A DNA stretch of 21,394 bases from a virus. Below, piece after piece: positions 1,542 through 20,418 of this stretch (its first letter is position 1; every line of letters starts with the position of its first letter). The notes under the pieces are model-generated. The model was not told the origin of the DNA and did not search any database. It saw only the letters and a program-made list of their open reading frames with translations. A program made the position numbers and the translations under genes. The DNA lies in IMG/VR virus record IMGVR_UViG_3300010233_000167, positions 1,623-23,016 of that record, one strand, 5' to 3'.

Positions 1542-2135
1542 TTAATTTTCTCCGTTAGTGAGGTTAACCGCCCAGTCGTGAGCAGCTTGAAGGCGAGCAG
1601 TATTAACTGCACAAATCTTTGCATCGTCTAGTGTGATATAAAGGTTGGCGTTTGCACTGGGTCCAGAAGAGCCTGTGGTAACTTGGCCTGTTTGATCGTC
1701 TCCACTATTTCCGGACTTACCGGTTGTACCTTGAGTGGCTTTGTAGCGCAAGAGACTAGCATTGTACTGGTTAAGAAGATCATGATACTTGTTGTCAGTG
1801 GCAGTTGCTTTGACTTTACTTTCATTGATTACCTGTTGTTTCTCTTTGTCCGCCGCTTTTTGTGCGTCAGCCTGTGCTTGTTTGTAGTTCTTGATGTCTA
1901 GTTGATGGGCCGCGCGTTCAACCAGCAGAGACGTATGATCATGTTTCCACCCAGTAAATCCGACAATGTTTCCAAGAAGTAGGCCAACAATAAGAGACAA
2001 TTGCCAATGTTTAACGGTAAATTTAACGGCTGTACCCAGAATCGTAAACAAGTTGGAAAGAACTTGACCGATGTTAATTCCAGTTACAAACTGAGTAACA
2101 GGCCCGATTAGTTTAGGAATTAGCAGTGGCCACAT
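1542..2135 (-). CDS. Rz: i-spanin, Rz-like inner membrane spanin subunit
   Basis: A 197-residue protein with a transmembrane segment at about residues 46-62 (LSLIVGLLLGNIVGF). It follows an N-terminal stretch of about 45 residues that is itself rather hydrophobic. A charged, Lys/Gln/Ala-rich periplasmic coiled coil occupies about residues 70-130, then a Gly/Ser-rich linker and a C-terminal segment. Class I i-spanins anchor in the inner membrane and bind the outer-membrane lipoprotein Rz1; the complex fuses the two membranes in the last step of lysis. The decisive evidence is that a complete lipoprotein gene lies inside it in another frame. The ATG at 2135 has GGAA 8 bases upstream and overlaps the end of the endolysin gene by 23 bases. 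The long N-terminal extension before the membrane segment is unusual for Rz. Confidence 0.88.
   Translation of the reverse strand: MWPLLIPKLIGPVTQFVTGINIGQVLSNLFTILGTAVKFTVKHWQLSLIVGLLLGNIVGFTGWKHDHTSLLVERAAHQLDIKNYKQAQADAQKAADKEKQQVINESKVKATATDNKYHDLLNQYNASLLRYKATQGTTGKSGNSGDDQTGQVTTGSSGPSANANLYITLDDAKICAVNTARLQAAHDWAVNLTNGEN
1628..1825 (-). CDS. Rz1: o-spanin, Rz1-like outer membrane lipoprotein nested inside Rz
   Basis: A 65-residue lipoprotein read in the +1 frame wholly within the i-spanin gene. It has a basic N-terminus (KVKSK), a hydrophobic core, and a lipobox LVSC with the acylated cysteine at residue 26, giving a mature protein of 40 residues. The mature part is proline-containing (PLKVQPVSPE, LPQALLDPVQTP), as is usual for Rz1. 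The ATG at 1825-1823 is preceded by AGGTAA at good spacing, so it has its own ribosome site. It pairs with the i-spanin to bridge the periplasm and destroy the outer membrane, which implies a Gram-negative host. Confidence 0.92.
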   Translation of the reverse strand: MKVKSKQLPLTTSIMIFLTSTMLVSCATKPLKVQPVSPEIVETIKQAKLPQALLDPVQTPTFISH

Positions 2136-8932: not shown

Positions 8933-11361
8933 TGTCCTTGAACTTGTCTAGCGGCTTCAACAGTTAGTGGTACGGAGAATTTATTAGCGAGATAACCGGG
9001 TTGATAGGTGTTGGAGACTCCTGAAATCATTCGATTACGAATTGCCGGACTATTAGCAAGACGATCTGCAAGCATCTTAGCCCCAAGACCTGCTCCGAGT
9101 GTTCCGGCAGCAGCAGCGGGGTTGTGTGTAAAAAATGAAGCTGCTTCACCCAGTGCAAGACCCGCACCAAGACTGGCATGGCTACGAAAGAATGACTGTG
9201 GTGTTGGTGCTACGTTTTTACTCAAGAAGAATTTACCAATGTCAGACAATTCTCCGAAGTTACCCGCTCCCATAGTCGCTTGATTTGTAAATCGACTGTT
9301 TACTGCACGACTAAAGTTGCTCGGATCAATCATCCCATCCGGGGTTGTTTCTTTTGCAGCGTCAGCAATAGTCATAACTTTCTTATAATTAAGCCTATCC
9401 GCTCTGAACTGAGCGAGATCGTGCTGGTCTGCAAGATTCCCCCACTGAAAATCGGGCTCATTAGAATTGTGAGTACTCTCGAAAGCATTGTCGAGAGCGT
9501 CTCTGACTTTCCCTGCGTAAAACCTAACGTTCGAATCACTGGAATTTTGAAGACGATAAAATGGTGTTCCACTTGCTGTTAGTTGCTTGTAGTCAGTCCC
9601 GGTGAAGTTTCCATTTTGGCTGATTCGATCAAGAATTCCATCAATATTCTTCTTGAGGGCCATTCCCCCGGTGCCAGTGAATTCGGACTTATCTAGATCA
9701 GCACGTGTGGACGAAAGTTGATCGGCGAGGTCGGACACACCAGAACCGTTGACTACCTTACCGTTCGTGAACCTATTCATAGACTCACCGGTCCTGCCAA
9801 GCATAGAATGGATAGTATCTAGCGTTGGACCTTGTGCAACCTCTTCTGGGGTCGCCTGTGCCTCTTTAAGGATAGAGTTAGTAAACTGTTGACGTAGTTC
9901 TGCTGTCTTTGATTCCGGAATTACCGTCGGGCTGATATCTACCCCAGAAGCATTCTTGATAAGTGGGACATTCAAATTAATTCCGTACTTATTAACTGCT
10001 TTGTCAGCAAGGTCTCTTGTGACTTCTGTAACCTTTGGGGCATAGTTTAGAAGCGATCCTGCACCGTGAAGTATTGGGGCAGCAACACTACCTGTAATTG
10101 CTCCACCGGTTACTTGATTACCAAAAGACTGATTAGACCCAGCAGAAGTAAGGGCAGCTTGCTCACCTCCTTGTAGCGCTCCCTTTGAAGCAAGAGACAC
10201 ACCCCTAAGGAATGCTGAACCTTCACCACCAGCACCACCGACAAAGCGAGCACCTTGGCCAAGAACCCCACCGCCTTCGATGGCATCAAGACCTGGGATG
10301 GCGAGGATAGGGGCAGTTGCAGCGGTCTCTCCGAGGAACTTACCAGCACCGTAAACGGGAGACCCTTGATTGTTTACGTCAGCCGTATTTCTATTAAGAA
10401 CACCCCTAGCGAGATCGTTGTTTAACGGATTACCGGGAAGTACGGCGTTGATCCCGCCTTCAATGGAGTTCTTGACGTTGCCGACAGCCGTATTAAACCC
10501 AGCAGCTAAGTCATCTCCATTTTCTTGGGTCTGAGCAACAGTCGAACCTTTGTTCGCAATGTCCGTTGGATGGTTCTTTAACCATAGGGAGATGTTCGCC
10601 GGATCACTGTTTTGAGTGATAGTAACAATCGGTCGACCATCTTTGTCCAACTTAGCAGGTGATAGGTCTTGGCCACCAAGATAGGCGATTGATCCATCTT
10701 CATTTCTGCCTACTTTGTTGTACGGATCGTACACCGGCCAAGAAGGTTTATCGTTGGACTTATTAGAATCAATGGCGAATTGAGCAGCTTCGTTCGGATC
10801 AACCTTAACTCCACCACCAATCGGATCGGTAGGTTGTTCTCTTGTACCAACTGGCGGAAGGGCTTCTGACGTTACAGAGGATTTTGACGTTTCATAGTCG
10901 CCGAACACTCCCGGATTGTTCTTTGGTGGTGTGTACTTGTCTTCAAAGTAAAGTTGACCGTCCGGACCTTTAACACCGGTACCATCGTCCCAAGTTGGGT
11001 TGTCTCGACCCTTGGCCTTTTGACCGTTGGGGGAGTAGAAAGAGTCGGCAGAAGTTACTGGCTTAGCCGATCCAGTGAGAATTGGTCCGGCAACGGCAAG
11101 AGCAGCCTTGTACTTTGGATCAGTTTCAGCAAGTTTGCTGTTCTGGTCCCAGGCATCTCCGGTACGTGCTTCGAACTGACTCGGCTCAGTGATCAGTTGA
11201 TCGTACGACTGCCCTGACTTAGCTTTTCGATTAGCAAGAACTGACGCTACGTACGCAGGATCACCTTCTCCGGCAATCGTACGGATCACATCCGGGTTGA
11301 TGTCAGCGGAGGTTGCATCATCGTCGAGGGTGTAGTCGCCGAAGATAGTTGGGGTCGTCAA
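8929..11361 (-). CDS. Ejection / internal virion protein with N-terminal murein-hydrolase-like domain (gp16 position)
   Basis: An 810-residue protein. Residues about 24-140 resemble SleB/CwlJ-type cell-wall hydrolases: IRTIAGEGDPAYVASVLANR, with E32 as candidate catalytic acid, then PSQFEA and later SADSFYSPNG with N-P-T-W. The rest is helix-rich, with Gly/Ala-rich stretches at about 338-435 and 730-765 that could insert into a membrane. It lies last in the ejection-protein series, where P22 has gp16. The likely role is to leave the virion with the genome, cut the wall locally and help form a channel across the inner membrane. The start is TTG at 11361-11359, overlapping the preceding stop (TTGA) with GGGATC upstream. 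A short FGDY motif occurs twice, at residues 7-10 and 153-156. Enzyme activity is inferred. Confidence 0.72.
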   Translation of the reverse strand: MTTPTIFGDYTLDDDATSADINPDVIRTIAGEGDPAYVASVLANRKAKSGQSYDQLITEPSQFEARTGDAWDQNSKLAETDPKYKAALAVAGPILTGSAKPVTSADSFYSPNGQKAKGRDNPTWDDGTGVKGPDGQLYFEDKYTPPKNNPGVFGDYETSKSSVTSEALPPVGTREQPTDPIGGGVKVDPNEAAQFAIDSNKSNDKPSWPVYDPYNKVGRNEDGSIAYLGGQDLSPAKLDKDGRPIVTITQNSDPANISLWLKNHPTDIANKGSTVAQTQENGDDLAAGFNTAVGNVKNSIEGGINAVLPGNPLNNDLARGVLNRNTADVNNQGSPVYGAGKFLGETAATAPILAIPGLDAIEGGGVLGQGARFVGGAGGEGSAFLRGVSLASKGALQGGEQAALTSAGSNQSFGNQVTGGAITGSVAAPILHGAGSLLNYAPKVTEVTRDLADKAVNKYGINLNVPLIKNASGVDISPTVIPESKTAELRQQFTNSILKEAQATPEEVAQGPTLDTIHSMLGRTGESMNRFTNGKVVNGSGVSDLADQLSSTRADLDKSEFTGTGGMALKKNIDGILDRISQNGNFTGTDYKQLTASGTPFYRLQNSSDSNVRFYAGKVRDALDNAFESTHNSNEPDFQWGNLADQHDLAQFRADRLNYKKVMTIADAAKETTPDGMIDPSNFSRAVNSRFTNQATMGAGNFGELSDIGKFFLSKNVAPTPQSFFRSHASLGAGLALGEAASFFTHNPAAAAGTLGAGLGAKMLADRLANSPAIRNRMISGVSNTYQPGYLANKFSVPLTVEAARQVQGQ

Positions 11362-12803
11362 GGTTCGATCCCGTACTTAGTCATCTGAGCTTCGATGTAC
11401 GCCTTTTTCTTGTTGAATGACTTGATTTGATCGTTTGTCATGTTCTTGTACATTTGTTCTCGTTGCTGAGGTGTCATGTACATCTCTTGGAAGATACGGG
11501 GATCAGCCACCGGCTTGAACTGGTTCACAACGGACTGGTAGTTCTCCGGGGTACCTCCACGCTTGGTCCAATCTTGCTGTACGGCATGCTCTAGTTGAAG
11601 CATCTTTTCATTACCAAGTAGCATCGCCCCCACTTGCTTGTTAGCTTCTGGGCTGTATTCATTGTTTGGATTCATCAGACGAGACATCTGAGTTTGTTCG
11701 TCCGTTGGTGCCATGCCAATAGCAGCTCGTTGTTGGGCAGCGAGTTGTTCACTGATCTTGCTGAATACCTGTTGACTTGGAGTGGCTGTGGGACTGTAGT
11801 TAGTACCGAGTATACGATTAGCCTCTGTTACCCACCCAGACCACTTGGATGCCCCAGGACCCGATTTAAAGTCTCCTTGAGCGGCGAGCATTTCGTGCAG
11901 AAGAGTCTCTCGTGCAACCGATCCGTTGTACGCAGTGTTGACAGCATTGTACTGATCCGTGGAAGTCTTAGCGGAGGATTCCTGTGCTTCGGCTGCACCG
12001 GGAACGGCTTGTGTGGCAATAGGACCAGTCGGAGCAGCACCAATAGATACTGATCCAGGTTGGTTATTCGGTAAGAGTGTTGGTGTTCGTTGTAGGAGCG
12101 TATCCGGAGTTGGACCACGCTTAAGAACCCCAGCAGATCCTTGAGCAACTTCAGCAGTACCAGAGTACGGATTTACAACGCTTGCTACAGTACGATCTCC
12201 GAGTTGCCTTTCTTCGATCTTTCCTGTCATGGCTGTTTGAGCACCTTCACCACCTTGACCAGAAATTACAGCAGCTCCTGACGCCCCGGCCCTGCCAAGG
12301 TTCCCACCACCGATGTACGTAGCAGCCATTTCTGGAGGAGCTAGACCAGCAGCAACAGCTCGTTGAATAGCCTGTGCAGAAGCTTTCTGGCCAATAGCAT
12401 CCCAAGTGGACGGATCAGCCGTTGGATTAGCTTTTTGAGCTGCTGTGGAAGCCGAGGTGTACGCATCCGCATCGATGTTTTGGATGTTCTGAAACTGCGA
12501 TTTAGCTAGATTTTGCTGAGCTTGTACGGCACCAATTCCCGCAGTACGAACAGCTTGCATGTCCTTCAAAATATCAGGAGCGTACGGAGCAGTCCGGGGG
12601 TCTTGTTGAAGCATCGAACTAAACTTATCTGGATCAGGTTGGCCATTAGGACCCAGTGACTGAGACAAATAATTACCGGCAAGCGACTTAGCTTGGAACA
12701 TCTTATTTTCATTGAAAGCATTCTGTACAGTTGCAAGCGTACCAATCGTCTGAAGAGGATTAACTACTTTTGCAGCGACGTCAGTTGTTTCAAACCCCGC
12801 CAT
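11358..12803 (-). CDS. Ejection / internal virion protein, gp20-position (481 aa)
   Basis: I start it at ATG 12803-12801 because GGAG is 9 bases upstream; a TTG at 12818 would add 5 residues. The sequence is rich in Ala, Gln, Asn and Pro with long predicted helices (for example LLHEMLAAQGDFKSGPGASK and QREQMYKNMTNDQIKSFNKK). There is no enzyme motif and no true membrane span. A middle stretch of Gly/Ala/Pro (about 165-275) looks like flexible linker. Composition and position between the 236-aa and 810-aa proteins match the P22 gp7-gp20-gp16 ejection series, so it is most likely released into the host with the DNA. It overlaps both neighbours by a few bases. Direct homology to gp20 cannot be shown by eye. 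Confidence 0.65.
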   Translation of the reverse strand: MAGFETTDVAAKVVNPLQTIGTLATVQNAFNENKMFQAKSLAGNYLSQSLGPNGQPDPDKFSSMLQQDPRTAPYAPDILKDMQAVRTAGIGAVQAQQNLAKSQFQNIQNIDADAYTSASTAAQKANPTADPSTWDAIGQKASAQAIQRAVAAGLAPPEMAATYIGGGNLGRAGASGAAVISGQGGEGAQTAMTGKIEERQLGDRTVASVVNPYSGTAEVAQGSAGVLKRGPTPDTLLQRTPTLLPNNQPGSVSIGAAPTGPIATQAVPGAAEAQESSAKTSTDQYNAVNTAYNGSVARETLLHEMLAAQGDFKSGPGASKWSGWVTEANRILGTNYSPTATPSQQVFSKISEQLAAQQRAAIGMAPTDEQTQMSRLMNPNNEYSPEANKQVGAMLLGNEKMLQLEHAVQQDWTKRGGTPENYQSVVNQFKPVADPRIFQEMYMTPQQREQMYKNMTNDQIKSFNKKKAYIEAQMTKYGIEP

Positions 12804-13098
12804 TAGTTGGTGCTCCAAAATGAGAGTGATACTTGTCTTGGAACTGAGATGCGGCTAAAAGTTGGGTACCGAGAGCTTTACGAATACCCTCTTCGTCATC
12901 CGGTAACTTTGCAAGAGCCCCGATGAGTGACTGTTTATCCTCGGGGGTTGGAAAAGCTCCGTGCGAGATCATTGTCGATGCCTCGTCGTACACGTCTTTC
13001 TTAGTCAGCTCGCCCTTTGGCATCGACACAAGTTTAATTAGACCTGTGATTGATGCGTCCAGTGCTTTGTGACCTTTGGCGATGTCTTCAGGAGTCAA
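12790..13098 (-). CDS. Small helical protein within the ejection-protein cluster, unknown function
   Basis: A 102-residue soluble, charged protein with predicted helices (MTPEDIAKGHKALDASITGL, then KKDVYDEASTMISHG and PTPEDKQSLIGALAKLPDDE). No family is recognised. The start appears to be TTG 13098-13096, with AAGGGA about 12 bases before it; no ATG exists near the N-terminus. It lies 17 bases after the 236-aa gene and overlaps the start of the 481-aa gene. Similar small acidic proteins occur between ejection genes in other podoviruses. A chaperone or scaffold role for the ejection proteins is possible but only inferred from position. Confidence 0.75.
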   Translation of the reverse strand: MTPEDIAKGHKALDASITGLIKLVSMPKGELTKKDVYDEASTMISHGAFPTPEDKQSLIGALAKLPDDEEGIRKALGTQLLAASQFQDKYHSHFGAPTNGGV

Positions 13099-13115: not shown

Positions 13116-13826
13116 TCAATACGGAATTTCTATGGCAACATCACCATAACCCTGCCCATAAGAGAGCAGGGCATTAATTGTTGTAGTACCTCCGCCACCC
13201 CCGTAAATTCCACCAGCAGCATTCTGATTAAGGAAAGCATTAGTGTACAAACCTTGCGAGATATTTCCCGTAGCTCCCGTGATACCCGCAGCCGCCGCAT
13301 TTCCTCCACCAACGATTGCTTGACCAGCATTGGATGCGGCTTGAGTTCCGTAGTTACCGGTTTGAGCAGCGGCGTTCTCCCCCAGATTAGCTTGTCCTTG
13401 TAGTTTAGCGAGATTAGTATTGTACGAGTTTAGGGCGTTACTGAACTGATTTTGATACGTTGTGTCAGCTAACCCCGAAGCATAAGATGCAGCCCCCTTC
13501 AGGGCAGCTCCGGAAGTACCAAGACCTTGTGCTGCGTAGCTGTTCTGAGTAGCCTTGAGACCTTGGGATAGATTGAACTGATAACCGGGGGTGGCTTCTA
13601 GTTGTGCCTGTGTCGGTGCAAAACTAAATGGCGACATCGCTGAGATTTGTTGATTAGCCGCTTGCCCTGTTAGGTTGTACGGATTTAAGTCGCCTCTGGT
13701 TGTATTGTACATCTGTTCTTGCAAGTTGGCGGCATGATTAGCAGCACCAGTTTGCATACCTGAAGCAGCAATAGAACCAACAGCCCCAATTGCAGATGCC
13801 CCGACAATAGCTGCGCCAAGTCCCAT
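13116..13826 (-). CDS. DNA transfer / ejection protein, gp7-position
   Basis: A 236-residue Ala/Gly/Asn/Gln-rich protein. The N-terminus (GLGAAIVGASAIGAVGSIAA) is a weakly hydrophobic helix. The middle holds a pattern seen in many phage DNA-transfer proteins: NPYNLTGQAANQQ, then TPGYQFNLSQGLKATQNSYA, GLGTSGAALKGAASYASGLA and YQNQFSNALNSYN. The end is a long low-complexity Gly/Ala tail. It is the first of the ejection series and corresponds to P22 gp7 by position. It probably travels into the cell with the genome and associates with the inner membrane. ATG 13826-13824 lies 4 bases after the stop of the upstream gene. Confidence 0.75.
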   Translation of the reverse strand: MGLGAAIVGASAIGAVGSIAASGMQTGAANHAANLQEQMYNTTRGDLNPYNLTGQAANQQISAMSPFSFAPTQAQLEATPGYQFNLSQGLKATQNSYAAQGLGTSGAALKGAASYASGLADTTYQNQFSNALNSYNTNLAKLQGQANLGENAAAQTGNYGTQAASNAGQAIVGGGNAAAAGITGATGNISQGLYTNAFLNQNAAGGIYGGGGGTTTINALLSYGQGYGDVAIEIPY

Positions 13827-13830
13827 ATCT

Positions 13831-14916
13831 TTAAATTGCCTTTTTCAAGTCTAAACGGTAGAGATTGCCAACAGGCTCAGCACCGATACGCTCATAGATC
13901 ACACCAAGTCGATCACCATCACCCCGTGTACCTGTTTGCATAAACACTTCGTCCACACCGCCAAGTTGAAGAGACGCATTGGCCGCTCGTTGCAGTTTAA
14001 GACCAAGACCAGGGAATGTTGGGTCAGCATAGAACGTTGAGTGAGTAGCAGAGGTAATGGCTGTATCAACAAGGGACGGGGCGATAAGGGTCATAAGATA
14101 ACCAAACATACGACCATTAGACCGAGCGACCATGACTTGAAGTAAACCATTATCATCAAGATACTTCATCAATCCGAGGTTCTTTCGTTTCCATTGATCA
14201 ATCGGTTCACCGACCTCAGTGCAATGTTGTTCGAACAGTTGTTGGCCATCCCGCACAAAGACATCGAAGGATTCTCGTTGGATTGTAACCCCGTCAGGAG
14301 GAATGACTTTATTACGTTTGAGAGCTAGTTGTGTCTTAACTTTATTTGTTGCCTGTTGAGCAAGTTTAACGAGAGATTCTTTGTACGCAGTTGCATATCG
14401 GACCATAGCAAAGAAATCGATTTGAATGTTCTTGTCTTTTAAGTTGTTGTAATGCTCCTCATCAAACGGTTGGTTTAGGCAAAACTCAAAGACTTGTTTG
14501 CACGTCTCTTTTCTGTTTAAGTCGTCAAAGGTGACTGTGAGTACGTTCGGAAGTCGCTTAGTCAGTTGGCCGAGCTTGTGATCAAGATACGTCATACCTC
14601 TTGTGAGCGTTACCTCATCAAAAACTCCAGGACAAAGGGTCATCAAAGACTTAACAACCTCATTGACCGGACGACGAACACAAACCACTTTACAATCAGG
14701 TACGAGTACAGGGATTAATCTCCACCAAGGGGCCGCAGCAGTTTCAACAGTACCGACTTGTGGTTGGGTGAACCAAGTCTTGATGTCCTTTAAGGTCTTC
14801 ATTCGTTGAAGTTCTTCGTGACCACAAATCCAGCCGTTGTACGTAAGAAACTTGCTGAGCCAGGCAGTACGTGATCTTGGAAGACCGAGGATTAGAAATG
14901 GACAAGAATTCGTCAT
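13831..14916 (-). CDS. Sulfotransferase-like / GNAT acetyltransferase-like two-domain protein
   Basis: A 361-residue protein. Residues 7-23 (FLILGLPRSRTAWLSKF) form a P-loop-like 5'-phosphosulfate-binding motif. Residues 77-91 (VVCVRRPVNEVVKSL) match the 3'-phosphate-binding Arg...Ser motif of PAPS sulfotransferases. After a helical middle, residues about 240-358 look like a GNAT fold: QVMVARSNGRMFGYLM (beta strands), FYADPTFPGLGLKLQRAANA (acetyl-CoA loop region, degenerate relative to the usual Q/R-x-x-G-x-G/A), and YERIGAEPVGNLYRLDL at the end. It lies between small virion-type proteins and the ejection genes, in the slot of P22 gp14. The target is unknown: a virion protein, host envelope molecule or small molecule are all possible. 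The start overlaps the preceding stop as ATGA. Confidence 0.72.
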   Translation of the reverse strand: MTNSCPFLILGLPRSRTAWLSKFLTYNGWICGHEELQRMKTLKDIKTWFTQPQVGTVETAAAPWWRLIPVLVPDCKVVCVRRPVNEVVKSLMTLCPGVFDEVTLTRGMTYLDHKLGQLTKRLPNVLTVTFDDLNRKETCKQVFEFCLNQPFDEEHYNNLKDKNIQIDFFAMVRYATAYKESLVKLAQQATNKVKTQLALKRNKVIPPDGVTIQRESFDVFVRDGQQLFEQHCTEVGEPIDQWKRKNLGLMKYLDDNGLLQVMVARSNGRMFGYLMTLIAPSLVDTAITSATHSTFYADPTFPGLGLKLQRAANASLQLGGVDEVFMQTGTRGDGDRLGVIYERIGAEPVGNLYRLDLKKAI

Positions 14917-15260
14917 ACAGTAATAATATATCCACTAATACCCGCACACGTCACTTTCCCAGATGTGTCGGCCAAAGCCTGTAAGGTATCACCAAGATTT
15001 AGAATTTGATTTTGGAGTTCAAGAGATGTGTACGTTTCATCGGGAGCAAGTTGTCGGTTATCAATAATTACGTTAGCCGCCCCCGGAGAACCACCATTAC
15101 GAACAATATAAACTGTAATACTGTGCGCAACAGTATCAGTGTTTGTAAAAGATGCAGTTGTGATTACAGTTCCGGCGGTATTGTATCCAGCCATAAAAAG
15201 GATACTTGCAGTATTGGTTAACTGACCTCCGGTATAAAGAACGGCTGCTCTAACTGTCAT
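14913..15260 (-). CDS. Small beta-rich virion-type protein (115 aa)
   Basis: Predicted all-beta, with the pattern ITTASFTNTDTVAHSITVYI followed by SPGAANVIIDNRQLAPDETY and a final DTLQALADTSGKVTC then SGYIITV. Small proteins of this design are frequent beside phage fibre genes and are probably surface or fibre-base subunits. ATG 15260-15258 has AGGTG about 9 bases upstream. It resembles the neighbouring 136-aa protein in overall plan. Function not known from sequence. Confidence 0.78.
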   Translation of the reverse strand: MTVRAAVLYTGGQLTNTASILFMAGYNTAGTVITTASFTNTDTVAHSITVYIVRNGGSPGAANVIIDNRQLAPDETYTSLELQNQILNLGDTLQALADTSGKVTCAGISGYIITV

Positions 15261-15693: not shown

Positions 15694-17658
15694 TTAGTTT
15701 AATACAATTTGTGGATCAATATAGAAGGTGGAGCTTGGAAGAGCGGCTTTTAGATAGGTGTATAAGTAACCGACGAGCTGTGGTGTAGGACTTGTGAGTG
15801 GCACAGTCATTTTAAATCGCCACCCCGCCTGCCATTTAGCCCCGTTATCTGTTACTGATCCACCATCCACAGCACTTGCAAAAGCAGCTGGAGGACTACC
15901 ATTGGTGCTTGTACCCGATTGAGTGCATATAAATACTCGACCGTAACCATCGACACTTGTTCCTGAGATGATAGCTCCAACAGTATAGGCGTGGTTACTT
16001 ATCCAGGCCGATGCTGCGCTATCCCATGCACTTGTATCTGCGGTCCAATTTGAACTTGCTGCTAAAATGTTAGATCGTGTTCCAGAACCTATTGAACCCA
16101 ATGGGCTTGAGGTTGATCCAAAATATTCTGTGTCATGCCAAATTTGTATATTGGTTGGCAACGCCGCACCAAACCATATTCCATAAACATTAACATTTAC
16201 AGTTGCACCTGTTTTAGAATTATATAGCCATGACCCAGGACAGGTAAATGGTACAGTCCAACCGACATTTGCGGTAGTTGTAATTTGCCAACTTATCGGT
16301 GTTGTGCCAGCTACAGCACCACCATTCCTGACAACTGTAGTGCTAGGAACATGCGAGCCATTCCAAGTGTAAGATCGCTGGTCGTAAGTTACGCCAGAAC
16401 TTCCAGAAGATATAAATTTGTATGTAGAAGCTAAACTTGTCGTACTGCCAAAATATGTAAGTGCTGAATTAAATTTACAATCAACAAATTGAGCGTTCCA
16501 ATTATTATTGCCAGGATTTAAAAGTGTGCCGGTTATAGCACTAAAATCCACACCTTCAAATAAGCCAACTCCACCATAAGTTGCATTAAAAGCAAATAAC
16601 GTTGTTGGAATTGTTGCACCTTGAATAGCAGATACTGTATTTCGCCAAATGGTTTTTCCGGCTGCTAACAGAATACCATCCGCCGTAGCTCCAAATTGCA
16701 TAGTTGTATTGTTTAGTTCAATATAAGATGAAACATTGCCTAAAGTAATAGCATTTCCAACTCCTGTTGTTCCAGCTTTTACTAAAGCACACGAATCTAA
16801 ACGAACTATATTATCGCCAGCATTATTAATAGTTAGAACGACATTTGTTGCACCAGAACCAGCCGAAAGAGTTATACCATACATATACCAAGGCGCATTG
16901 AAAGCGCCTGTTACAGTTAGAGCATTTGCTCCTGTAGTCGTTATCGACGCTCCAGTTAATAAATTAGCAGATGTAGGTGGCAAATTTGCGGTATGATCTA
17001 CAGATATAAATTGTGACCACACTGGAACAGTTATGGTTTCAGCAGCAGCTTGAGTTTCAGCATGGTCATTACCAAGATAGCCAATAGAGTTAACTGCAAC
17101 CGTTCCACTGGGCATCCATGTTGAAGCCACCGCGCTTTGCAACCTAGCAAACGGAGCTTTCCAATATTGAAAACCACTGGCCAGCCCTAAGCTAGTCCAC
17201 TTTACCGTTGCACCATCACTTGTTACAACACCAGCAGTTGCACTAAATACTGGCGAAGAACCACTAATTGTACCGGCAGTTGTACAAATTTGCAATGACG
17301 CCGAAGTTGTATCATAAATAACTAAGCCAGTTGTTACGGCTGTTGAAGACGCATGTTGCTGCGTCCAAGTTAGAGCGTTTGTTAAATCACCATTAGTTGC
17401 CGGATTGCCAGTACATTCATACCAAGTTACGGTTCCGTCAGTTGTAGCACCATAACGAGTAATTGCCCAAGTTGGTTCGCCAACATTATTGGTTGTTCCA
17501 GCTACTCCGCAAACAAACACACGCTCGCTGCCAACAGCAGGCGTAGCAAGTTGTCGAACTAATTGTCCGCAGGTATAACCATGATTCTGTATCCAAGCAC
17601 TTACGGCTGTCCATTGAGTGCTGTCGGTGTACCAAACGGAAACATTGAGATTAGCCAT
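15694..17658 (-). CDS. Tail fibre with three carbohydrate-binding-like modules around a beta-helical centre
   Basis: A 654-residue protein. Residues about 16-84 contain AWIQNHGYTCGQLVRQ, ERVFVCGVAGTTNNVGEPTW and TTDGTVTWYECTG. This Trp-Tyr-Gly-Val ... Cys ... GT ... DGT-x-x-W module is common in phage fibres and resembles chitin/cellulose-binding modules. A shorter, diverged copy follows at about 97-158 (GLVIYDTTSASLQICTTAGT, SDGATVKWTSLG). A third lies near the C-terminus at about 545-611 (AWISNHAYTVGAIISG, GRVFICTQSGTS, TDNGAKWQAG). Between them, about 185-440, are Asn/Thr/Gly-rich short strands typical of a parallel beta-helix. It is probably a receptor-binding fibre. Its ATG overlaps the collagen-like gene's stop (TAATG), so translation is coupled. 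The central DNA is visibly AT-rich. Confidence 0.78.
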   Translation of the reverse strand: MANLNVSVWYTDSTQWTAVSAWIQNHGYTCGQLVRQLATPAVGSERVFVCGVAGTTNNVGEPTWAITRYGATTDGTVTWYECTGNPATNGDLTNALTWTQQHASSTAVTTGLVIYDTTSASLQICTTAGTISGSSPVFSATAGVVTSDGATVKWTSLGLASGFQYWKAPFARLQSAVASTWMPSGTVAVNSIGYLGNDHAETQAAAETITVPVWSQFISVDHTANLPPTSANLLTGASITTTGANALTVTGAFNAPWYMYGITLSAGSGATNVVLTINNAGDNIVRLDSCALVKAGTTGVGNAITLGNVSSYIELNNTTMQFGATADGILLAAGKTIWRNTVSAIQGATIPTTLFAFNATYGGVGLFEGVDFSAITGTLLNPGNNNWNAQFVDCKFNSALTYFGSTTSLASTYKFISSGSSGVTYDQRSYTWNGSHVPSTTVVRNGGAVAGTTPISWQITTTANVGWTVPFTCPGSWLYNSKTGATVNVNVYGIWFGAALPTNIQIWHDTEYFGSTSSPLGSIGSGTRSNILAASSNWTADTSAWDSAASAWISNHAYTVGAIISGTSVDGYGRVFICTQSGTSTNGSPPAAFASAVDGGSVTDNGAKWQAGWRFKMTVPLTSPTPQLVGYLYTYLKAALPSSTFYIDPQIVLN

Positions 17659-18176
17659 TAAAGAAAGAACACTGCAAAACCAGCAGACCCTTGTGGGCCT
17701 TGGATTGGAAATGTATCTTGGCCGTCCTCGCCGTCTTGTCCAGGAAGACCTAATCCGGCTAGACCCTGTGGTCCCATCGCGCCAGTAGCACCCGTCGGAC
17801 CTGTTGGACCAACTGAGCCCGTTGATCCCGGTGGACCTGGAATTGTCAGACCATCTTCCCCGTCTTCACCGTCCCACCCTGTCGGACCAATAAATCCTTG
17901 AATACCGGGAGAACCTTTTGGGCCAATTACTTGGGTAGTATTAAAAGATAACGGTAGGCTTAGCTGATCTTGTTGTGTCTGCTGGAGGTCCGGCTTAGAA
18001 TCAGATAAGGCCTCAAGGATAGCGAGATCATCGGAACTAACACCATTCGCCCCACCTGTTCTATTCCACAGTTGAGCAAGTAAGTAGAACCATTCTGATG
18101 TGATATTCCCTTGTTCATCAACAAGTTTTGATGATACTTTCGGAAAACCCTGTTGAGTTGTACTACCTACTGGCAT
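17658..18176 (-). CDS. Collagen-like fibre protein in the tail-needle (gp26) position
   Basis: A 172-residue protein. The N-terminal 80 residues carry a phage-tail motif (SEWFYLLAQLWNRTGGANG) and a helical Gln-rich segment. Residues 85-166 are Gly-X-Y repeats (for example GPKGSPGIQGFIGPTG and GPTGPTGATGAMGPQG) with three short breaks, ending in a hydrophobic FAVFFL tail. Collagen repeats form a trimeric rod. In P22-type genomes the gene after gp10 encodes the trimeric gp26 needle that plugs the tail, so this may be the functional counterpart; a side fibre is the alternative. Asp-Gly-Glu triplets make several repeats strongly acidic. ATG 18176-18174 is preceded by the duplicated leader element and its short upstream ORF. 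Confidence 0.85.
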   Translation of the reverse strand: MPVGSTTQQGFPKVSSKLVDEQGNITSEWFYLLAQLWNRTGGANGVSSDDLAILEALSDSKPDLQQTQQDQLSLPLSFNTTQVIGPKGSPGIQGFIGPTGWDGEDGEDGLTIPGPPGSTGSVGPTGPTGATGAMGPQGLAGLGLPGQDGEDGQDTFPIQGPQGSAGFAVFFL

Positions 18177-18215: not shown

Positions 18216-19703
18216 TTATGTTTCCGCCGGTTCTGCCCACACATCACCACCATTAAGCGCGGTGAAAGCGGGTACTGACCAAAAGACTTCAAATACTCTA
18301 TTACGAGCTTGACCTAGTTGTGGGAACATAATTGACCGATTGAATTCGCCGGTTGATCCGAGACCATACACACGAGGATTTCCCCAGGTCTTACCACGAT
18401 TATCGCTGTACCGAAGAGAGATTTGTGGTTCATTTGATGTAAGTGTGTTTTGAATTTCACCTACATCCATGTCCAGGACAAGACGACTAAACTCAACTCT
18501 ACGGTTATTGACTTGAATACCGGGCCAACCGCGTCGACGAACAATAGGTTGACCATTATCTGTATAGTTATTTAGGTTCCACTGATAAAGTGCCCCAGTT
18601 TCCCAATCGCCCACTACAATAGTTCCATAAGCAGGCGCACAAGTGTTTGGACGAATACGGTTTTCCTGACCACTATTGTCTGTCCAAGTTCGTTCATGCC
18701 AGAGATTTTCAGCGATGTCGAATACCCATGTTGCATTGGCAGTCGGGAAAATTAATACGTAAAACGTATGACCAAGTTGCTGATAGGTAAATCCGATGGC
18801 ATCGCTGATTGTAGCGTACGAAGAGATTTTCTGTTCAATGGCGTGCGTAGAGATACGATGGGCCGTGTATTGATTACCGTTAAGAACAATAGTTTGCCCT
18901 TGACGGTCTTTACTTAACCAGTAAATTGAGAGGTCTTGACGACAAATCGAATAGGGGGCAACACAACCATGTTCGATAAATACACCGGGAAGTTCAGCAA
19001 AAGAAAACTGGGGGTTGCCCGCATCGTACCACACTTCAGTAGTTTCAGTACCAATTAACCACGCTTCTCGGTGCATGGCTATTACACCAACGACATTATC
19101 TGGATTGCCGACTTTAGCCGCAATGTCTAATGGATCAAAAGCCGCAGCAGTAGTGTCGGGGGAAACTGTACCAGTTAGATTTTCAAAAGTTACATTGGAA
19201 AGAGAGATGTACCATTGATTGGTATTGGGTCGATTTAACAGAAAGAACGTGTCAATACAATCGACCCTATTTCCTCCGTAAAATGCCCCATCTTGTCCGG
19301 AGATTGTAGCGAAAGAATTATCCGACATCTTGATGCACCAACCGTTTGCTGATCCATCCACAATGAGGATTGCTAGGCTGTTATCCGACATCGATACGAT
19401 ACCACTATCGGAGTCAATAGTACCGAGAAGAGTACGAGACCAACCTGAAGTAGTTGCGTAGACTTTATTGCCGATTACTTCGTAAAAGTTACCATTAGTT
19501 GCTGTGTACGCACATCTATGTTCAAAACCTGTTCCGGCAATTAGTTGTGTAAGACCGGGAGTCAGTTGATGTGTAACGGGGAAGGGGCTGTCTTCAGGGT
19601 TCTTTTCTGGGTATAGGTTAACGCAACGTTGGGCGGAAGCAATGACTGACCTAGCCTCATACATACCTCCAACTAGCGGAAGTTTTACAGGACTAGTAAC
19701 CAT
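18216..19703 (-). CDS. Tail hub / packaged DNA stabilisation protein, P22 gp10-like
   Basis: A 495-residue protein from ATG 19703-19701, which overlaps the gp4-like gene by 11 bases; a TTG at 19736 would add 11 unrelated residues. The N-terminal signature EARSVIASAQRCVNLYPEKN, followed by PVTHQLTPGLTQLIAG, is characteristic of the P22 gp10 family. Later segments such as GYIDSD-like beta repeats and VWFDIAENLWHERTW-type text (here WVFDIAENLWHERTW) fit the beta-propeller-like hub. It joins the gp4-like adaptor at the base of the portal and closes the tail after packaging. P22 gp10 is of similar size (472 residues). Confidence 0.9.
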   Translation of the reverse strand: MVTSPVKLPLVGGMYEARSVIASAQRCVNLYPEKNPEDSPFPVTHQLTPGLTQLIAGTGFEHRCAYTATNGNFYEVIGNKVYATTSGWSRTLLGTIDSDSGIVSMSDNSLAILIVDGSANGWCIKMSDNSFATISGQDGAFYGGNRVDCIDTFFLLNRPNTNQWYISLSNVTFENLTGTVSPDTTAAAFDPLDIAAKVGNPDNVVGVIAMHREAWLIGTETTEVWYDAGNPQFSFAELPGVFIEHGCVAPYSICRQDLSIYWLSKDRQGQTIVLNGNQYTAHRISTHAIEQKISSYATISDAIGFTYQQLGHTFYVLIFPTANATWVFDIAENLWHERTWTDNSGQENRIRPNTCAPAYGTIVVGDWETGALYQWNLNNYTDNGQPIVRRRGWPGIQVNNRRVEFSRLVLDMDVGEIQNTLTSNEPQISLRYSDNRGKTWGNPRVYGLGSTGEFNRSIMFPQLGQARNRVFEVFWSVPAFTALNGGDVWAEPAET

Positions 19704-20418
19704 CGCTGTACACGTTGTACGAACGCTGAGCACCAATTACTGCTGGTGGCATTTTGGACGTTGGAGTTTGAACGTTAGCCCCACGAATAACATTGAGAGC
19801 ATCTTTAGCAAGAGCAATCATCGCCGGATCGGCTGGCATACGGTAGGCGACCCTAAGACGAACCATAAGATTGTAAAGAAGAGCCGCTTCGTACTCAGGG
19901 GGAAGATTGATAACCTGAGTAAGAGATGTGAACTGAGTAATCTGGTGTTTAACCAAAATGTGTAACTCATACAAATTGGCATTAGGCACAGGCCATGCGT
20001 AAATTGTACCGTTGGGCCAGTTGCTGTCGTAAAAGATAATGCTGGGCCAAGTACCCATTGTCTTTAGACGAATACGATTGTAATCTTCATGTGAGGGCAA
20101 CAGTTGAAGGGGATAGTCGATTTGCTCAACACCCGCTTGGGCTCGTTGCCTCAGGAAGTTACCATCTTCAAGGCGATCTGGGCGAGGTGTGTCGAAGTCG
20201 CCCCCAGGACCAATAGAATAGGTTTCAGCCCCCGTGGTCACAACGGAAACGTCAGTCAGATTGTAAATCATCCAACGCTTACGGTTCCACTGAGCAGTGA
20301 TATAATTCAACCGTTTAAATGCATTGTTAATGTCTTCAGCTTGGGCGATCTGACCTTGACCAAGGATACCCGAGTCAATCAATGCTAGAACAAGAAGATC
20401 ATTAACGGTTGATGTCAA
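19693..20418 (-). CDS. Tail accessory factor / head completion protein, P22 gp4-like
   Basis: A 241-residue protein. The N-terminal helix pair (VNDLLVLALIDSGILGQGQI, then EDINNAFKRLNYITAQWNRK) and the segment around TYSIGPGGDFDTPRPDRLED match the gp4 family of ring-forming adaptors. These bind below the portal and start tail assembly. It is longer than P22 gp4 (166 residues), with the extra length in the C-terminal half. The start is TTG 20418-20416, six bases after the upstream stop; no in-frame ATG lies close to the conserved N-terminus. It overlaps the gp10-like gene, in line with coupled synthesis of the two hub proteins. Confidence 0.88.
   Translation of the reverse strand: MTSTVNDLLVLALIDSGILGQGQIAQAEDINNAFKRLNYITAQWNRKRWMIYNLTDVSVVTTGAETYSIGPGGDFDTPRPDRLEDGNFLRQRAQAGVEQIDYPLQLLPSHEDYNRIRLKTMGTWPSIIFYDSNWPNGTIYAWPVPNANLYELHILVKHQITQFTSLTQVINLPPEYEAALLYNLMVRLRVAYRMPADPAMIALAKDALNVIRGANVQTPTSKMPPAVIGAQRSYNVYSDGY

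Follow-up and report, generated by a model that had tools for sequence, protein, structure and literature searches.

A predicted sulfotransferase-GNAT fusion protein encoded beside the DNA-ejection genes of an IMG/VR virus

Little is understood of how podoviruses prepare their ejection proteins, keep them in the head and let them refold in the envelope, and the locus described here raises a specific question: why should a virus encode a protein with two transferase-type domains directly before a DNA-ejection gene? We analysed a window of 21,394 nucleotides, positions 1623-23016 of a 30,933-base IMG/VR virus contig (IMGVR_UViG_3300010233_000167), in which the original prediction, made from the letters alone, had described a sulfotransferase-like domain joined to a GNAT-like domain. 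The open reading frame (ORF) that it placed at 13831-14916 is exact; its strand, which had been left out, is minus.

The fused gene, its family and its genomic slot

In order of transcription, the genes run from the end of the major head protein (PHROG_283) through SU10_adaptor, Hc3 (PHROG_578) and a collagen-like fibre gene to a 654-aa protein with head-decoration-like stretches, two small genes, the fused gene, the P22 gp7-like ejection gene (PHROG_598) and more ejection-type genes. The main features are:

18216..19736, minus strand: Hc3 head-closure gene (P22 gp10-like; PHROG_578, E = 2.5e-103), the upstream boundary of the slot
14913..15260, minus strand: small beta-rich protein, directly upstream of the fused gene
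13831..14916, minus strand: fused sulfotransferase-like/GNAT protein, an intact ORF of 361 aa with an ATG start
13116..13826, minus strand: P22 gp7-like DNA-ejection protein (PHROG_598 'DNA ejection', E = 2.7e-18), directly downstream
11358..12818, minus strand: second ejection-gene position, 486 aa, whose homologues follow the fused gene in L003, L088 and L094
8929..11361, minus strand: third ejection-gene position, 810 aa, whose homologues follow the fused gene in L090, L091 and L095

The fused gene and the gene upstream share bases 14913-14916 in an ATGA-type start-stop overlap, and 4 bases separate the stop of the fused gene from the start of the next one, which together place it within a late operon. 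The directly downstream product begins MGLGAAIVG; the 486-aa and 810-aa products had no Pfam match. Elsewhere in the window, the fibre protein (17658-18176, minus strand) carries collagen-like GXX repeats, and an overlapping pair of genes (1542-2135 and 1628-1825, minus strand) resembles Rz with an embedded Rz1-type lipoprotein in another frame and adjoins an endolysin (2113-2640). Searches of the phage's own 30,933-base record revealed no PAPS-reductase family gene and no Sulfotransfer_3 match at E ≤ 0.001.

Searching IMG/VR with the single protein recovered 2 relatives, while an alignment search recovered 149, the best 80 of which were combined with L002 and L003. The resulting 82 relatives all align over more than 250 residues and form 20 clusters at 80% identity, apart from the window's own cluster; with the window and its own record again (L001), they make up the 84 aligned rows used below. 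The fused gene was also present in four bacterial contigs (Azospirillum rugosum and Nevskia, Beijerinckiaceae and Rhizobiales MAGs, the Rhizobiales copy being cut by the contig end). Queries with three members, one of them the window protein, found no fused copy among 50,697 GenBank phage records, and a plasmid search with the window protein alone found no fused homologue.

Both domains lay in one frame in all 85 loci examined across IMG/VR and the bacterial contigs, including one in the A. rugosum genome, which rules out an assembly artefact as the source of the fusion; a chance match is ruled out by the intact frame in 82 other IMG/VR loci and by purifying selection. In a wider set, all 162 ORFs with the N-terminal domain (N-domain) also carried the C-terminal domain (C-domain), but many of these loci re-cut the same contigs and the set holds the best 80 of 405 relatives, so the count is no evidence that close relatives are always fused. 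Selection on both domains is strongly purifying: median dN/dS was 0.109 for the N-domain (999 pairs) and 0.063 for the C-domain (989 pairs), with pairs that share sequences and are therefore non-independent. Sequences close to each other in one domain tend to be close in the other as well (r = 0.72 between identities; 210 pairs), consistent with a fusion that arose once and long ago.

The position of the fused gene is similarly constant. A gp7-like profile match lies within 300 bp downstream in 60 of the 71 fused loci with enough DNA (the downstream genes of the remaining 11 had no gp7-profile match), and an Hc3-like gene lies within 4 kb upstream in 69 of 75. The exceptions include a second lineage (L082, L086, L092 and L093). 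Its Azospirillum representative instead has T7-type tail genes (PHROG_394 and PHROG_376) before the fused gene and, one gene further downstream, a transglycosylase-bearing ejection-type gene. The slot is thus the T7 gene 13 position, between tail-completion and ejection genes, in two tail-module types; the domain pair recurs there in most of the fused loci, although the original prediction had assigned it to gp14. Homology to T7 gp13 itself was looked for and not found: PF11090 was missing from the matches of the window protein and 21 representatives, and hhalign of the GNAT profile against T7 gp13 found nothing, so the likeness is positional only.

Two predicted transferase folds

We next examined the encoded protein, whose predicted features are:

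14383..14916, minus strand: predicted sulfotransferase-fold domain, residues 1-178 (AlphaFold2 model; best matches to tyrosylprotein sulfotransferases, TPSTs)
14845..14898, minus strand: 5'-phosphosulfate-binding-like strand-loop-helix, residues 7-24 (FLILGLPRSRTAWLSKFL; conserved loop, modelled)
14812..14826, minus strand: CGHEE, residues 31-35, with candidate catalytic base E34/E35 (spacing from R14, conservation)
14635..14691, minus strand: 3'-phosphate-binding-like motif, residues 76-94 (R82...S90; modelled, conserved)
14311..14382, minus strand: connecting helix, residues 179-202 (DSSP on the model)
13840..14295, minus strand: GNAT-fold domain, residues 208-359 (VIA-align Z, PHROG_1249)
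13987..14022, minus strand: GNAT motif A/acetyl-CoA pyrophosphate loop, residues 299-310 (PTFPGLGLKLQR; conserved glycines)

Modelled alone with AlphaFold2, residues 1-206 reached a pLDDT of 85.2 and a pTM of 0.82. The N-domain is predicted to adopt a PAPS-type sulfotransferase fold nearest to the tyrosylprotein sulfotransferases, which occupied the top three places in the Foldseek list (best E = 7.5e-5). The PAPS-binding motifs originally proposed at residues 7-23 and 77-91 both reappear in the model: a strand (E7-11) and helix (H17-23) enclose the loop P13-R14-S15-R16-T17-A-W19, and a second strand (E76-81) leads into a helix (H84-94). P13, R14, S15, R16 and W19 are invariant in 21 of 21 representatives, R14 and R16 each occur in 84 of 84 rows, and so do R82 and S90, whose eight-residue spacing we take to be that of the 3'-phosphate site in known sulfotransferases. 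Position 34 is E in 79 and D in 5 of the 84 rows, and E35 is kept in 83. According to the available text of one study (PMC5562738), the catalytic residues are R79, E100, K159 and S286 in TPST1 and R78, E99, K158 and S285 in TPST2. The distance from R14 to E35 (21) equals those of R79-E100 and R78-E99, a match by spacing only, with E34 as an alternative base.

The window protein alone passes no Pfam cut-off and scored 19.9 bits against Sulfotransfer_3 (cut-off 27), a model that was matched at E ≤ 0.1 by 17 of 21 family representatives and whose cut-off was passed by L090 (29.5 bits) and L071 (28.3 bits) among 10 scored members. A PDB sequence search gave weak matches to the sulfotransferases 5tiz and 8y9p (E = 0.019 and 0.045); its top profile match, a designed helix bundle over a 20-residue stretch, was compositional and set aside. 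NCBIfam had no match for the fused protein.

Might the N-domain instead belong to the P-loop kinases or nucleotide hydrolases? PHROG_10855, which matches 21 of 21 representatives, is labelled 'hydrolase', and GenBank relatives are annotated 'putative nucleotide triphosphate hydrolase'. VIA-align of residues 1-170 gave TPST1/TPST2 (5wrj, 3ap3) a Z score of 11.7 over 159-163 residues but also ranked kinases at 9.6-10.8; shikimate kinase (10.8), less than 1 unit below TPST, is a formal tie, so the fold by itself leaves a kinase possible. Yet there is no Walker A motif (GxxxxGK[ST]) and no Walker lysine, the loop reading PRSR in all 84 rows; R82 and S90 keep the spacing of a 3'-phosphate site; two members pass the Sulfotransfer_3 cut-off; the first non-sulfotransferase in the Foldseek list, RapZ, trails at E = 4.9e-3; and a standalone relative, PaMx25 gp68, carries PRSGTTW. 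We therefore regard a kinase or hydrolase as highly improbable.

The C-terminal assignment, also as first proposed, is to a GNAT-like domain. Residues 208-359 align with GNATs at Z scores of up to 15.5 (3fix_B; 138 residues, rmsd 2.5), the structural matches including the N-terminal acetyltransferases RimI and Naa10 and many other GNATs. PHROG_1249 ('acetyltransferase') matches 21 of 21 representatives, and although no Pfam GNAT model matched the window protein, L086 reaches Acetyltransf_1 at 20.9 bits (cut-off 20.7). The cofactor loop had been called degenerate, but both of its glycines are kept (G303 in 82 of the 84 rows, G305 in all of them); the one loss is the Q/R that opens motif A (Q/R-x-x-G-x-G/A), most representatives having E, A, T, D or S at position 300. 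Y341 is present in 80 of the 81 rows that have a residue there, presumably the position where GNATs often carry a general-acid tyrosine. AlphaFold2 modelled the full protein, from a 21-row family alignment, with a pLDDT of 87.5 and a modest pTM of 0.57, which leaves the relative placement of the two domains uncertain. Profiles and two structure predictions thus bear out two transferase-type domains in one late-operon protein, with a predicted PAPS-type fold at the N-terminus and a predicted GNAT fold at the C-terminus.

Sister phages and the downstream ejection protein

Other phages fill the same slot with a different first enzyme. In Pseudomonas phage PfAn1, a PF05118 Asp/Asn beta-hydroxylase gene lies directly before the GNAT gene, and in PfAn1-type phages the hydroxylase gene is itself preceded by a homologue of the small beta-rich protein encoded at 14913..15260 (alignment and profile matches). 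Searching with the PfAn1 hydroxylase recovered 52 relatives (L186-L237), with a GNAT gene directly downstream in 45, spanning at least two sequence groups, and none inside the stretch examined in the other 7. None of the 52 carried the sulfotransferase domain within the stretches examined. The cultured Limnohabitans phage DC33 has the same hydroxylase and GNAT pair. Mutual exclusion of hydroxylase and sulfotransferase was considered and ruled out by one of the 85 fused loci, which has both:

L055:5357-7065: three-enzyme run, in which the gene immediately preceding the sulfotransferase-GNAT fusion encodes a PF05118 hydroxylase (29.2 bits; cut-off 22.6)

The slot therefore gathers enzyme families able to act on proteins. 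The Asp/Asn beta-hydroxylase family also includes enzymes with non-protein substrates, so that a protein target is something we infer.

From 27 matched GenBank records, the slots of ten gp7-like genes had no match to the three enzyme profiles. Some of these slot genes have weak Pfam matches to other families. That of Rhodoferax phage P26218 (L241:1509-2384) has a weak C-terminal SET match (E = 0.015, under the cut-off) and is possibly methyltransferase-like, and that of PAE2 has a weak Pfam GNAT match (E = 0.027, under the cut-off). Five Vibrio and Shewanella phages (L242-L244, L246 and L247) encode a small protein that by eye looks cupin-type directly before a gp7-like gene whose product starts Met-Ser; the annotation in VvAW1 cites PHA00672. 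A slot GNAT at L183:3800-4462 has an N-terminal extension of ~80 aa with no Pfam match, possibly a further fusion. Two gp7-like genes (L055:7069-7959 and, in PAE2, L238:2396-3307) carry, by annotation or by score, a Peptidase_S74 (endosialidase chaperone) domain.

The start of the downstream protein differs among these groups. It is Met-Gly in 72 of 75 fused loci and in two more by an alternative ORF call, L081 having no ORF. In the ten GenBank relatives lacking a slot-enzyme match it is Met-Ser (8), Met-Thr (1) or Met-Gly (1), and in the hydroxylase-GNAT loci it is Met-Val (20), Met-Gly (9) or Met-Leu (1), with no ORF in 14 of 44. These three groups of loci are clades, so shared ancestry may explain the pattern, and we treat this N-terminus as a lead to an N-terminal acylation target. 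A bolder reading, which we consider rather unlikely, is that the slot holds a swappable cassette modifying DNA-ejection proteins, in which a constant GNAT would acylate the exposed N-terminus of the adjacent gene's product and its partners (sulfotransferase, Asp/Asn hydroxylase or both) would add groups suiting the host envelope.

Proposed function and closest known proteins

Our leading answer, held tentatively, is that this protein, in the gene 13 position of short-tailed phages, is a late, soluble modification enzyme with two activities; its target during assembly would be a virion protein encoded nearby, an ejection protein being the likeliest. Late expression is suggested by operon position. 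The N-domain would probably bind PAPS through R14 of the 5' loop and, at the 3' phosphate, through R82/S90; it would then hand the sulfate on to a hydroxyl, E34/E35 serving as base, much as tyrosylprotein sulfotransferases do; this likelihood covers binding and transfer jointly. Transfer of an acetyl or other acyl group from CoA onto an amine by the GNAT domain is quite probable. Less firmly, the target could be a neighbouring phage protein, likeliest the directly downstream ejection protein, which would be modified inside the infected cell, either ahead of assembly or in its course, and the enzyme itself need not enter the particle. We infer both activities and the target from sequence, predicted folds, conservation, operon position and recurrence.

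Two further readings have to be weighed. The protein might be a host-directed effector, made in the host or delivered into it with the ejection proteins, that modifies a host protein, surface glycan or metabolite for takeover, superinfection exclusion or counter-defence. The available text of two reports offers precedents: roseophage CRP-4/5 GNATs have been proposed to serve host metabolism (PMC6918029) and the Skadi-1 GNAT to serve host programming, citing a phage GNAT tied to RNA polymerase cleavage (PMC10504331). Standalone relatives of the N-domain (PaMx25, Ab18) also lie among DNA-metabolism rather than virion genes. However, the fused gene keeps to the virion operon: in most loci tail genes precede it and ejection genes follow, and the place is shared by both tail-module types, whereas host-takeover genes usually lie in early regions; the secondary structure of the model shows no membrane segment. 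We judge a host effector unlikely. It appears more doubtful still that both folds were retained without catalysis, as a scaffold or chaperone for the ejection proteins. That would suit the T7 gene 13 position, as Pfam names the T7 gp13 family 'probable scaffold protein', and also the loss of the GNAT loop's first position and the arginine in the 5' loop where a standalone relative has glycine. But cofactor and candidate catalytic residues are among the family's most conserved, the GNAT profile has no sequence match to T7 gp13, and the strong purifying selection on both domains, each with its catalyst-type residues kept, speaks against the original suggestion that one might be only structural.

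If the modification-enzyme reading is true, it would explain why a GNAT lies beside ejection genes, so far a puzzle, and would add one of the few protein sulfotransferases encoded by a phage. A conserved pair of predicted modification domains directly before the ejection genes in many environmental phages, with a hydroxylase there in sister phages, predicts specific mass shifts in virion proteins; phages may complete part of their particle proteins by chemical modification. As far as we searched, the sulfotransferase fusion and the sister arrangement of a hydroxylase before the GNAT are new, and standalone GNATs in the slot were already known; within open-licence PMC literature, we found neither the fusion, nor the hydroxylase-GNAT pairing, nor a protein-modification reading of the slot.

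Among known proteins, TPST1 and TPST2 share with the N-domain the 5' and 3' motifs and an R/E pair 21 residues apart, but the N-domain is shorter and only 11-13% identical, and of the four TPST catalytic residues the R/E pair is matched, by spacing. Its phage homologues PaMx25 gp68 and Ab18 ORF36 (PHROG_10855; E = 7.8e-10 and 4.2e-17 against the family profile in a three-sequence search) are instead standalone proteins of 173-183 aa encoded among DNA-metabolism genes. Their loops read PRSGTTW or PRSATTW, that of PaMx25 gp68 being the textbook GLPRSGTTW, with glycine where the fused family has R16. In Clavibacter phage 33 (L008:6001-6558), a sulfotransferase-like gene appears to be annotated with too late a start: tblastn already aligns from 36 bases ahead of that start, and the protein as annotated is missing the 5' loop. 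Phage sulfotransferase domains have been reported without an assigned function in the text available to us (PMC10580990).

For the GNAT domain the precedents are positional as well. Standalone PHROG_1249 GNATs (Zobellviridae GP100, Vibrio phages, PfAn1) occupy the same slot directly before ejection-type genes, and a cobavirus GNAT lies beside internal virion proteins and was likened to T7 gp13 in the available part of its description (PMC6775973); none of these has a fused sulfotransferase domain. The placement that the original prediction found unexpected is therefore unusual for the sulfotransferase-like domain but familiar for the GNAT. In Pseudomonas phage YA3 (PMC7326022, available text), the slot gene is annotated 'putative acetyltransferase' and gp13 as DUF2833, a link to the fused family by slot and not by shown kinship. 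The same text reports 13 virion proteins by mass spectrometry and, without listing all 13, does not name the slot acetyltransferase, which fits an enzyme that need not be packaged rather than a structural part. T7 gene 13 lies between tail genes 11/12 and ejection genes 14-16, as the fused gene does by position, although T7 gp13 (PF11090, Phage_T7_Gp13) matches only PF11090 and PHROG_308, unlike the fused family. The PF05118 and GNAT pairs of PfAn1, DC33 and L186-L237 share both the slot and the GNAT partner with the fusion, but as separate genes with a different first chemistry, the hydroxylase replacing the sulfotransferase domain.
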